From assembly GCA_018241765.1 (NCBI GenBank), contig JAFEDD010000015.1:45613-109612 (forward strand): a stretch of 64,000 nucleotides of DNA, in the 5' to 3' direction. Source of the stretch: Pseudomonadota bacterium. Lineage in GTDB: Bacteria; Pseudomonadota; Gammaproteobacteria; Burkholderiales; Casimicrobiaceae. Shown here piece after piece: positions 2,061 to 49,636 of this stretch. The notes below the pieces were generated by a model. It did no database searches. It saw only the letters and a program-made list of their open reading frames with translations, and was not told the origin of the DNA. Both the position numbers and the translations under genes were made by a program. How positions within the stretch are numbered: position 1 is the first letter of the stretch; every line of letters begins with the position of its first letter.

Positions 2061-2176
2061 CAACTTTTTGCGTAAATGACGTCCATGACGGGCTTGCGTG
2101 CCGAAAACACCGCAAGTCGAGTTTTTACGGAATCGCGCTGCAAGCCTGTCATGGACGCCATTCCAGGCAAAAGTTG
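2061..2176. repeat. Dispersed palindromic element, copy 1 (about 118-bp family)
   Basis: The ends are inverted CAACTTTTT and AAAAGTTG. Inside them, left arm GTCCATGACGGGCTTGC pairs with right arm GCAAGCCTGTCATGGAC, around a central CAAGTCGAGTTTT. It lies between the EcsC gene and the DUF3079 gene and contains no reading frame. Related copies are at 11198, 19086, 29085, 31101, 33588 and 49473. Confidence 0.85.
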
Positions 2177-2291
2177 ATGCAAACAATGGGCGTTCTGATT
2201 GACGGATCGGGCCCGGATTGATCTGGGTCAAGGAGGCTGCGGTGCGCGAAGCGGAGACTACTCGGTTGCAGTGACTCGCGCTGCCCACGCC

Positions 2292-11148: not shown

Positions 11149-11197
11149 CGGCCGCAGGCGCCGGTGGTGACGCCGAAGTGGGCCATCATCGGGCCAT

Positions 11198-11315
11198 CAA
11201 CTTTTCGCCGAAAACCGCATTCACAACGGGCTTGGCGCGTCAAAACATCAAAAGGCGACTTGATGCGATTTTGCGCTGGAAGCCCGTTGTGGATGCGGCT
11301 TTTCGCAAAAAGAGG
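11198..11315. repeat. Dispersed palindromic element, copy 2
   Basis: Starts CAACTTTTCGCC and ends CGCAAAAAGAGG. The inner arms CACAACGGGCTTGG and GGAAGCCCGTTGTG pair. The centre contains AAAAGGCGACTTGATG. It lies between the convergent pepE and cytochrome genes. The variable triplet in the stem is CAA/TTG here, against TGA/TCA in copy 1 and TAA/TTA in copy 7. Confidence 0.85.
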
Positions 11316-19021: not shown

Positions 19022-19085
19022 AAAGGCAGTCTAGCTCACGGACGGGGATCGTCGTCGGACCCGTCGAGACACAAAATCGACGCTA

Positions 19086-19203
19086 CAGCTTTTTTGTGCA
19101 ATGGCGTCGGCAATGGGCTTGCAGCTCGATTCGGCATGAACCCGGTTTTGGCGGTTTTCCGCCGCCAAGCCCGTCATGGATGCGGTTTGGCGAAGAAAGT
19201 TGT
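19086..19203. repeat. Dispersed palindromic element, copy 3 (diverged)
   Basis: Begins CAGCTTTTTTGTGC and ends GAAGAAAGTTG. The right arm GCCAAGCCCGTCATGGATGCGG keeps the consensus, while the left arm (GTCGGCAATGGGCTTGC) has drifted. The central palindrome is replaced by TTTTGGCGGTTTTCCGCC. It sits between the divergent nadD and the small membrane-protein gene. Confidence 0.75.
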
Positions 19204-29084: not shown

Positions 29085-29203
29085 AACGGCTTTTTCTGGA
29101 AAGGCGCATCCATGACGGGCTTGGCGCTGTAAAACCCATAAAGTCGACTTTGTCGATTTTTCTCGTGTAACCCTTGCCACATGCGGCTTTAGCAGCCAAG
29201 TTG
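29085..29203. repeat. Dispersed palindromic element, copy 4
   Basis: The left half keeps the consensus (AAAGGCGCATCCATGACGGGCTTGGCGC) and the perfect central palindrome AAAGTCGACTTT. The right half (GTAACCCTTGCCACATGCGG, CCAAGTTGG) has drifted. It sits between the divergent YeeE gene and the kinase gene, about 130 bp before the kinase start. Confidence 0.8.
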
Positions 29204-31100: not shown

Positions 31101-31180
31101 TGGCTTTTCGCTGAAAGGCGCATCCACAACGGGCTTCGCGCTCGATTTCCGCAAAAGTCGATATCTGACCACAAGCCCGC
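31101..31180. repeat. Dispersed palindromic element, copy 5 (truncated)
   Basis: The left half is intact (CTTTTCGCTGAAAGGCGCATCCACAACGGGCTTCGCG) and the centre reads CAAAAGTCGATATCTG. After CAAGCCCG at about 31172-31179 the right arm stops exactly where the 72-bp palindrome unit at 31182 begins, so the second repeat probably interrupted this one. Confidence 0.75.
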
Positions 31181-33587: not shown

Positions 33588-33664
33588 CAGCTCGATGCTG
33601 TAAGGCGCATCTACAATTGGCTTGGAGCGCGAAATGCGGCCAAAGTCGACTTGAAATCGTTAAG
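33588..33664. repeat. Dispersed palindromic element, copy 6 (left half)
   Basis: CAGCTCGATGCTGTAAGGCG is followed by CATCTACAATTGGCTTGGAGCG and the centre CAAAGTCGACTTGA. The right arm is absent after about 33664. It sits between the two long direct-repeat units. Confidence 0.7.
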
Positions 33665-48314: not shown

Positions 48315-49472
48315 ATGAGTGACGCGCTGCTTGCCGTGCGCGGCGTCGGCAAGGTCTTTCCGCGCATCGGGCGCCGCGGCGCCGGCGTCGCGGCGCTCGC
48401 GCGCCTGCTCGTGGCGAAGCCGGCGAGCGAAGGGTTCGTCGCGCTCGATGGCATCGACTTCTCGGTGCAACGCGGCGAATCGCTGGCGCTGGTCGGTGAG
48501 AACGGTGCCGGCAAGTCGACGCTGCTGAAGATCATCGCCGGCGTGCTGCAACCCACCAGCGGGCGGGCGGATCGGCTGGGCAGCGTGGGCGCGCTGCTCG
48601 AACTGGGGGCCGGGTTTCATCCCGAGTACACCGGTCGCGAAAACCTGAAACTCGCCGCTGCATTGCAGGGACTGAGCGGCCACGCGTTTGCCGCCAGGCT
48701 CGACGACATCATCGCCTTTGCCGACATCGGCGCGCACATCGACGCGCCGATCAAGACCTATTCGAGCGGCATGATCGTGCGCCTCGGCTTCGCGCTGGTC
48801 ACGGCGCTGAAGCCCGATCTGCTCATCACCGACGAAGTGCTGGCGGTGGGGGATGAATCCTTTCAGAACAAGTGCATCGCGTGGATGGAGCGCTACCTTG
48901 CCGACGGCGGCACGTTGCTGCTCGTCTCGCATTCGCTCTATCACGTGAAGAAGCTCACGCGCCGCGCGGTTTGGCTCGACCACGGCCGACAGCGCATGAT
49001 CGGCGCGAGCCACGATGTCGCCGTGGCCTATCAGGCGTTCCACGAGGCGAAGCAGGCGAGTGCGAAGGCGGCCGCGGTGGCGAGCGCCAGCCCCGCGCTC
49101 GGACACTACGCAGTGACCGATCTGCACATCGAACACAGCGACGAGGCGGGTCTGCGGGCGCGGGGACGCCTGCACAGCCGCGACGGGCGCCGCCCGCACG
49201 TGGCGGTCGGCATCGTGCGCATCGACGGCACGCCGGTGTATGGCACGACCAGCGAGATCGATGGCGCTGCCGTCGCCGAACTCGGTGACGGCGCGTTCGA
49301 GTTTGTGCTTGCGTTCTCGGACTGGCGCCTGCTGCCGGGCGGCTATCGGCTCCGCGCGCATGCGCTCGACCCGGAGGGCATGCGCGTCTACGACACCGTC
49401 GAACGCGATTTCACGGTCGGTGGGGATTCCCGCGAACTCGGCATGGTGCGTTTGCCGCATCGCTGGATGTAA
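48315..49472 (+). CDS. ABC transporter ATPase with Wzt-like C-terminal domain
   Basis: A 385-residue ATP-binding protein. The nucleotide-binding domain (1-235) has Walker A GENGAGKSTLLKIIAGV (about 61-77), a signature YSSGMIVRLGFA (about 149-160) and Walker B LLITDEVLAVGD. The C-terminal domain (about 250-385) contains VAVGIVRIDGTPVYGTTSEIDG and ELGDGAFEFVLAFSDWRLLPGGYRLR, which fits the Wzt carbohydrate-binding beta sandwich that selects the polymer terminus. It forms an exporter with the permease just upstream. A dispersed palindrome begins at its stop codon. Confidence 0.92.
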   Translation: MSDALLAVRGVGKVFPRIGRRGAGVAALARLLVAKPASEGFVALDGIDFSVQRGESLALVGENGAGKSTLLKIIAGVLQPTSGRADRLGSVGALLELGAGFHPEYTGRENLKLAAALQGLSGHAFAARLDDIIAFADIGAHIDAPIKTYSSGMIVRLGFALVTALKPDLLITDEVLAVGDESFQNKCIAWMERYLADGGTLLLVSHSLYHVKKLTRRAVWLDHGRQRMIGASHDVAVAYQAFHEAKQASAKAAAVASASPALGHYAVTDLHIEHSDEAGLRARGRLHSRDGRRPHVAVGIVRIDGTPVYGTTSEIDGAAVAELGDGAFEFVLAFSDWRLLPGGYRLRAHALDPEGMRVYDTVERDFTVGGDSRELGMVRLPHRWM

Positions 49473-49590
49473 CAACTTTTCACGAAGAAGCGCATCCATA
49501 ACGGGCTTGGAGCGAGGATTTTCAAAAAGCCGACTTTTGGCGATATCGCGCTGCAAGCCCGTTATGGATGCGCATTACAGCGGAAAGTTG
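49473..49590. repeat. Dispersed palindromic element, copy 7 (best preserved)
   Basis: The element runs CAACTTTTCACGAAGAAGCG to CAGCGGAAAGTTG, almost fully symmetric. GCGCATCCATAACGGGCTTG on the left pairs with CAAGCCCGTTATGGATGCGC on the right. The centre is AAAAAGCCGACTTTTGG. It starts with the stop codon of the ABC ATPase gene and ends about 45 bp before the atp operon promoter. This copy defines the family consensus. Confidence 0.92.
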
Positions 49591-49636
49591 TTGCACTGAA
49601 ACGGTTGATCCGTGTCAGAAGTTGCGTATTTGTGCG

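Follow-up and report, generated by a model that had tools for sequence, protein, structure and literature searches.

MITEs such as Correia and ERIC are 100-150 bp long, have inverted ends and occur in many copies. Uptake sequences are much shorter, at 10-30 bp. Sites bound by gyrase, of which the strong gyrase site of Mu is an example, have a length and phasing similar to those of the elements described here and are linked to supercoil domains, whose boundaries are usually regarded as stochastic or transcription-dependent for the most part. In E. coli, the site-specific macrodomain systems matS/MatP and maoS/MaoP are examples of repeated chromosomal sites with a presumed role in chromosome organisation through a dedicated protein; matS is described as a site of 13 bp with 23 copies in one 800-kb domain (PMC3330122). 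REPs are described as sequences of 20-40 bp tagged with GTAG or CGTC (PMC3733652) and as being processed as single-stranded hairpins (PMC8266576). For uptake sequences, dialects between species are reported (PMC3630211), and even spacing is described together with an organising role that was once proposed (PMC1939737). Supercoil domains of about 10 kb, a long-standing inference for bacteria, are quoted in PMC3420936.

The elements of 118 bp described here resemble each of these systems in part. As with matS, a repeated, distributed and vertically kept site is found; in contrast to matS, the elements are composite dyads of 118 bp which occur in all three sampled regions of a second genome and carry clade-specific arms. 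With REP/BIME sequences and their RAYT (TnpA-REP) they share that they are intergenic, palindromic, species-specific and built from two inverted units, but they have a double-stranded frame of 118 bp, a loop-free centre, no tag, and sites that are kept in place. MITEs of the Correia and ERIC type are similar in length, inverted ends and copy number, whereas the elements show no target-site duplication, have inherited positions and have saturated spacers. The DNA uptake sequences of Haemophilus and Neisseria are also genome-wide, evenly spaced and divided into species dialects, but they are short and present in many more copies. The Mu strong gyrase site is comparable in length, helical phasing and its link to supercoil domains, while the elements are symmetric, with a genus-specific frame and clade-specific arms. 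To our knowledge, no kind of element with this combination of features has been described, and a literature search found no published description of the element.

Copies and anatomy of the element

A profile search of the window (the whole 64-kb stretch of DNA that was analysed) confirmed the seven copies of the original prediction at the positions given there, five of them full-length, one truncated and one half. The matches span 2061-2176, 11197-11315, 19085-19203, 29086-29202, 31101-31178, 33595-33653 and 49472-49592, and none of the seven lies inside a predicted gene, as had been claimed. Genes were predicted here and in all other counts with our own simple hexamer caller and no published tool. 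The copies, followed by the parts of the copy at 49473, are as follows, all without assigned strand:

2061..2178, full-length element, tandem genes on either side
11198..11315, full-length element, convergent genes on either side
19086..19203, full-length element, divergent genes on either side
29086..29202, full-length element with a degenerate right arm, divergent genes on either side (start also given as 29085)
31101..31178, truncated element
33595..33653, half element, a module of a larger composite repeat (start also given as 33588)
49473..49590, the reported copy, full-length, 118 bp, directly 3' of the stop codon of ORF 48315-49472
49473..49480, left outer end CAACTTTT, with column constraint
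49490..49509, left inner arm GCGCATCCATAACGGGCTTG, the clade-specific module
49518..49519, left A/T-only dinucleotide, element positions 46-47
49526..49537, central dyad, AAAGCCGACTTT in this copy, with the symmetry axis at the 49531/49532 boundary
49544..49545, right A/T-only dinucleotide, mirroring positions 46-47
49554..49573, right inner arm CAAGCCCGTTATGGATGCGC
49583..49590, right outer end GAAAGTTG

The shared ends, inner stem and centre are as originally described, except that the centre of the copy at 49473 reads AAAGCCGACTTT.

The family extends well beyond the window. The source genome of the window (G000; 3.24 Mb in 76 contigs) holds 75 instances per strand of the exact core GGGCTTG-N42..46-CAAGCCC but only one of a reversed-pattern control, so that the core is much commoner than chance would give. 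An 864-kb sample of this genome, consisting of the window and 40 stretches of 20 kb, contained 63 non-overlapping profile matches, of which 47 were full-length (48 before the stretches were joined). By extrapolation, the genome would hold roughly 180 full-length copies and roughly 240 overall. None of the 48 full-length copies lies inside a gene: 25 are located between tandem, 12 between divergent and 10 between convergent genes, with one at the end of a stretch; a small number reach into a predicted gene end, by at most 26 bp. For column-wise analyses a set of 64 copies was used, obtained from 84 long matches by removal of 17 from other species and of L002, which has a core 11 bp longer (66 left), and then of two copies out of register. 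This set was partly collected by the exact core pattern or as best profile matches, while the 47-copy set comes from the stretches and is pattern-free. One pair of elements 2 kb apart (G000:C21:10566 and 12534) is near-identical, unlike the usual divergence between copies, and is perhaps a local duplication.

The frame of the element consists of the outer CARCTTTT, an AA, two A-or-T positions and the central AAGTCGACTT. In the constraint map of the source genome, the constrained columns are TTT at 6-8, AA at 15-16, the arm at 19-37, the A/T-only positions 46-47, AA at 55-56 and TC at 58-59, arranged around an axis at 59.5, while the spacers at 10-14, 42-44 and 49-53 carry little information. 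No terminal GTAG or CGTC tag is present among the constrained columns. In the 64-copy set, every one of the 128 half-sites has only A or T at positions 46-47 (TT 66, AA 43, AT 10, TA 9), as do 93 of the 94 half-sites of the pattern-free set; the A/T fraction at these positions is 0.96-0.97 in the second genome, G001, and 0.95-0.97 in seven pooled sets from metagenome-assembled genomes (MAGs). In a coarse scan over periods of 8-13 bp, the best period of the A/T profile was 9.5 bp in G000 (64 copies, P<0.0005), G001 (104 copies, P<0.0005) and the MAGs (102 copies, P 0.0005). The MAG sets used for the frame and period analyses were chosen by outer-end and TCGA patterns, so that conservation of those positions in them is by construction; positions 15-16 and 46-47 are exempt from this. 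The core span was exactly 58 bp in 44 of the 47 full-length copies in the 864 kb (57, 69 and unclear in the others), and because it is fixed although the spacers are random, the length of the element itself is under selection. The arm dinucleotide at 27-28 is TA, TG or CA in the triplet counts of the source genome and hardly ever CG, as if CG at this place had decayed or was disfavoured.

Across nine species sets the frame agrees and the inner arms differ. The arm is GCATCCAYRACGGGCTTG in G000, GCCCATTnnnATGGGC-like in JAPUER, JANXNO and two copies of G012, CGACCG..GCGGTCG-like in JAGNQL, JAKPSO and JAEUPL, and of the type GGGGCTA in JANXNI and JANXUB. In the latter two the element is 116 bp long, in 12/12 JANXNI copies and in 8 of the 14 JANXUB copies listed. 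In clades other than that of the source genome, each arm is often a small palindrome.

Agreement between the two arms

It had originally been proposed that a stem triplet covaries between copies and that such compensatory change implies a hairpin kept as RNA or cruciform DNA or, alternatively, arms copied as one unit. The triplet is matched in the three copies that were cited, but it agrees in only 23 of the 64 source-genome copies. The statistical check of stem covariation was null in this genome: mirrored agreement over arm positions 18-37 was 1010/1280 against 1009.5 expected (sd 12.5; 64 copies, shuffled halves), and 700/940 against 701.4 in the pattern-free 47 copies. At positions 27-28, 72 of 128 cells agreed (66.1 expected, z +1.0), and position 47 agreed below chance (22/64 vs 33.1 expected). 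Among cells with both halves non-consensus, 47/54 agreed against an expected fraction of 0.744 (sd 0.063), a difference of about 2 sd. The two half types, GCATCC on the one hand and GCGTCC or ACGTCC on the other, are joined without preference, with 30 AA, 26 AB, 7 BB and one unclassed copy (n=64). After RNA folding, the mean minimum free energy was -52.0 for real copies and -54.2 for chimeras of unrelated halves (P 0.21). The halves of the G000 elements thus vary independently.

For the 104 copies of G001, arm agreement was above chance (1020/2080 vs 943.6, z +3.5). Of the six MAG sets, JANXUB (19 copies) gave z +2.4 and the other five gave z -0.2 to +1.0. The consensus scores of the left and right halves are correlated in G001 (r 0.37), and near-invariant GGG positions feed the excess. 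When only cells with both halves non-consensus are counted, the G001 agreement is 0.453 against 0.426 expected (sd 0.025). There is no excess in shifted columns, and the folding of real copies is not better than that of chimeras (-35.7 vs -36.1). The G001 excess can mostly be ascribed to a set in which strong copies are mixed with weak or mis-registered ones and not to compensatory change, although a weak coupling may exist in that genome. Neither part of the proposal, a hairpin shown by compensatory change or arms copied as one unit, is supported: agreement in the source genome is at chance level, its half types combine freely, and chimeras fold as well as real copies in both genomes.

Positions, spacing and range of the elements

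Comparison of G000 with the complete genome G001 gave 253 reciprocal best hits with a median identity of 79%. Of 41 gene ends that carry an element in G000, 31 also carry one in G001 (4.2 expected, P 4e-27). In the strictest test, in which both gaps were at least 100 bp, this was the case for 29/29 ends against 7.6 expected (39 G001-positive ends, n=149), so that empty sites of the MITE type were not seen in G001 at these ends. For the MAG loci, 28/41 gene ends match G001 (7.1 expected; one-way best hits). Among the MAGs with CGACCG arms, 8/8 gene ends (four elements) match in JAEUPL, 1/2 in JAKPSO and 0/3 in JAGNQL. At the JAEUPL sites at least, position has been retained although the arms differ. 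Turnover of sites does exist, since 10 of the 39 G001-positive ends have no site in G000 and none of the three JAGNQL ends matched. In 21 paired G000/G001 elements, one pair of which includes a half copy and two of which share one G000 copy, the spacers are 0.29-0.33 identical, compared with 0.28 for the flanks, 0.60-0.79 for the frame blocks and 0.39 for the arm at 18-31; the frame values are underestimates, because some of the pairs are out of register. The original statement that no consistent target-site duplication is visible was borne out in the 50 of 64 copies that could be tested, where matches of 2-9 bp at offsets 1-5 were about as frequent as expected.

Compared with random intergenic placement, the elements are spaced more evenly in G001 and, to a weaker degree, in G000. 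The median of 99 intervals in G001 is 11.95 kb; only 2.0% are shorter than 4 kb (21.7% under random intergenic placement), 55.6% fall within 8-18 kb (29.3%) and the sd of the log is 0.63 (1.10), and none of 2000 random placements was as extreme on these three measures. The plain coefficient of variation was not significant (0.84 vs 0.96, P 0.07), partly because of one gap of 117 kb. Per 100 kb, with partial matches included and the one element-free block excluded after inspection, the variance/mean ratio of counts was 0.23 (P 0.0015). In G000, 46 intervals have a median of 11.8 kb, with 8.7% below 4 kb against 21.4% (P 0.0125) and a P of 0.0095 for the sd of the log, while the coefficient of variation (P 0.06) and the 8-18 kb share (P 0.13) were not significant. 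In 1.6 Mb of G001, 109 full-length copies were counted, which would correspond to about 300 in the whole genome. Each of the three regions sampled in G001 contains elements, and in this genome they are enriched at convergent junctions (28% vs 14%, P 3e-4; 30 of 108 element-bearing gaps are convergent); the corresponding trend in G000 was not significant. The 117-kb stretch without elements (G001:C1:97822-215432) is probably an acquired island, as suggested by the absence of reciprocal best hits in the G000 stretches for its 104 predicted genes (253/1318 overall).

The search of related genomes that had been proposed placed the family in a single genus. A model made from G000 copies matches 11/17 genus genomes, and a sequence-only frame model built from 50 copies of many species matches 16/17 of them and 0/47 others in the family, in a survey with stricter filters and at most 57 candidates scored per genome. 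Matches to the frame model are weaker in G002-G006 (best E ~1e-6 to 1e-8), and G010 (2.6 Mb, 97% complete) is the only genus genome without one. In 399 genomes of the order, a strict frame pattern was found in 4/7 sampled genus members and in 2/392 others, once each; the latter two are taken as chance matches and lack the central motif, as does the single match in G002. A scan of 84,980 species genomes gave at least 106 stretches, and the 80 loci listed all come from eight MAGs labelled Burkholderiales, betaproteobacterial or Pseudomonadota. An earlier impression of restriction to this species came from the exact pattern with G000 arms and was overturned by the profile searches; the elements are restricted to one genus. 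No element match was found in viral contigs, plasmids or phages. With Rfam, only tRNA reached the gathering score in the window, and the copy at 49473 gave only sub-threshold matches to miRNA models. These searches agree with the original view of a genuine repeat family unlike named ones, and neither a REP tag and RAYT linkage in G000 nor target-site duplications and empty sites of the MITE kind were found, in line with the family not having been recognised as ERIC, REP or a named MITE.

Candidate function and alternative explanations

That the elements are constrained DNA sites is well supported. On balance, although with modest confidence, we read them as candidate protein-bound sites of chromosome architecture, the architectural role being inferred. 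Each element would be a double-stranded, dyad-symmetric protein-binding site of about 11 helical turns. A and T look alike when viewed from the minor groove, and because they are interchangeable at positions 46-47, reading through the minor groove is suggested; together with the helical phasing this points to contact along one face, and thus to a protein assembly that would bend or wrap the 118 bp around itself. A factor that switched its specificity within the genus may recognise the arms. From the spacing of ~12 kb, a role in organising the chromosome is suggested, with the sites as possible anchors or boundaries of loops or of supercoil domains; this distance lies near the 10 kb given for such domains in PMC3420936. 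A fuller version is tentative, and we lean slightly against it: chromosome folding would be genus-specific, with one nucleosome-like wrapped complex of 118 bp per ~12 kb marking the anchors of loops or supercoil domains, and, with a change in the specificity of the reader protein, the arms would have been swapped at many orthologous sites without loss of position, while the minor-groove frame stayed fixed.

Several points speak against this reading. G010, at 97% completeness, lives without detectable sites, and the evenness of USS/DUS was read in the same way before uptake became their accepted role, as recounted in PMC1939737. The turnover of sites, the non-significant measures of spacing, and the arm agreement above chance in G001 and JANXUB, which gives pairing some scope, also count against it. 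In a narrow screen, no candidate for the binding protein stood out among 84 basic proteins of 60-420 aa encoded in 1.6 Mb of G001 (36% of the genome), 29 of which had homologues in the sampled stretches and were inspected by eye. For finding this protein, G010 offers a natural comparison. If the architectural reading is true, long specific sites at the ~10-kb spacing of domains make domain anchoring directly testable, and arm exchange at orthologous sites poses an evolutionary puzzle, in which many sites follow a change in specificity while frame and positions stay. Once confirmed, such a role could count as a variant of site-specific chromosome organisation.

The same length and phasing could be produced by strong topoisomerase sites of the gyrase type, at which the enzyme would have the element wrapped around it and act at the centre. 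A wrapped topoisomerase complex has a comparable length and ~10-bp phasing; gyrase wrapping, however, is thought to be asymmetric, and the element is symmetric. Clade-specific arms and a genus-limited range would also be odd for a universal enzyme, and we regard this explanation as unlikely in spite of the enrichment at convergent junctions in G001 and the spacing near that of the 10-kb supercoil domains (PMC3420936). The convergent enrichment would also suit an RNA or cruciform hairpin kept by base pairing, as in the original prediction, or a bidirectional terminator. The arms of the best copies are strongly complementary, those of other clades are often small palindromes, and in two sets, G001 (z +3.5) and JANXUB (z +2.4), the arms agree more often than chance predicts. 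On the other hand, covariation is absent in G000, chimeras fold as well as real copies in both genomes, the A/T-only positions are unpaired, the central dyad has no loop, and Rfam matches are below threshold only; as for termination, 12/48 copies lie between divergent genes and a consensus scan found nothing terminator-like at the 49473 copy. A structure maintained by pairing is accordingly given only a small probability. Operator sites through which one or more transcription factors control a large regulon would be intergenic, dyad-symmetric and kept beside orthologous genes, as the elements are. Neither the even spacing in G001 nor the position of 30/108 element gaps between convergent genes would be expected of a regulon, which makes this explanation improbable.

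A mobile repeat of the REP/BIME or MITE type, a selfish hairpin or TIR unit that a transposase would spread in trans, would fit the high copy number, the intergenic location, the inverted ends and the length of about 118 bp. In addition, gaps with an element are longer by about one element (residual median 130 vs 104 bp), and two Y1_Tnp (RAYT-like) genes are present in G000. Against mobility stand the sites kept at orthologous gene ends, the absence of target-site duplications in 50 copies, and spacers that are random while frame and length are kept. The elements were likewise not found in phages, plasmids or viral contigs, and the profile had no match in the 3-kb locus of either RAYT-like gene. 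A mobile element was rejected on the orthologous positions, the absent duplications and the lack of matches in phages, plasmids and viral contigs, and we hold it to be very improbable. Still less credence is given to self-recognition sites for DNA uptake, which would resemble USS/DUS with their dialects. Clade-specific dialects, genus-wide occurrence and even spacing of the kind described in PMC1939737 would agree with it, but 118 bp exceeds the size of uptake sequences several-fold, one site per 12 kb is sparse, and the elements are palindromic with a long rigid frame.

Other repeats were seen in the source genome. The two Y1_Tnp (RAYT-like) genes, whose linkage to the element was looked for in G000 only and not found, lie amid dense repeats of other families, seen as repeated peptides in ORF translations:

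L024 (G000:C24:7282-7605), Y1_Tnp (RAYT-like) gene
L025 (G000:C6:5166-5330), Y1_Tnp (RAYT-like) gene

The half copies had been considered as remnants of an autonomous partner. This was rejected, as they are parts of a distinct composite repeat, in which the half element is one module, the others being a further palindromic repeat of ~39 bp and tandem-like units of greater length. In the G000 stretches, nine copies of it were found:

window 33595-33653, composite repeat with half element
L065:14019, composite repeat with half element
L073:2007, composite repeat with half element
L073:2753, composite repeat with half element
L081:6313, composite repeat with half element
L083:19710, composite repeat with half element
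L094:3024, composite repeat with half element
L094:5438, composite repeat with half element
L100:11091, composite repeat with half element

Finally, the end of a foreign sequence (..GAAACACTGCACTAG), identical at L085:19718, L085:19956 and L100:2528, abuts truncated elements or adjoins one, as if another mobile element had inserted into or near the element sites.
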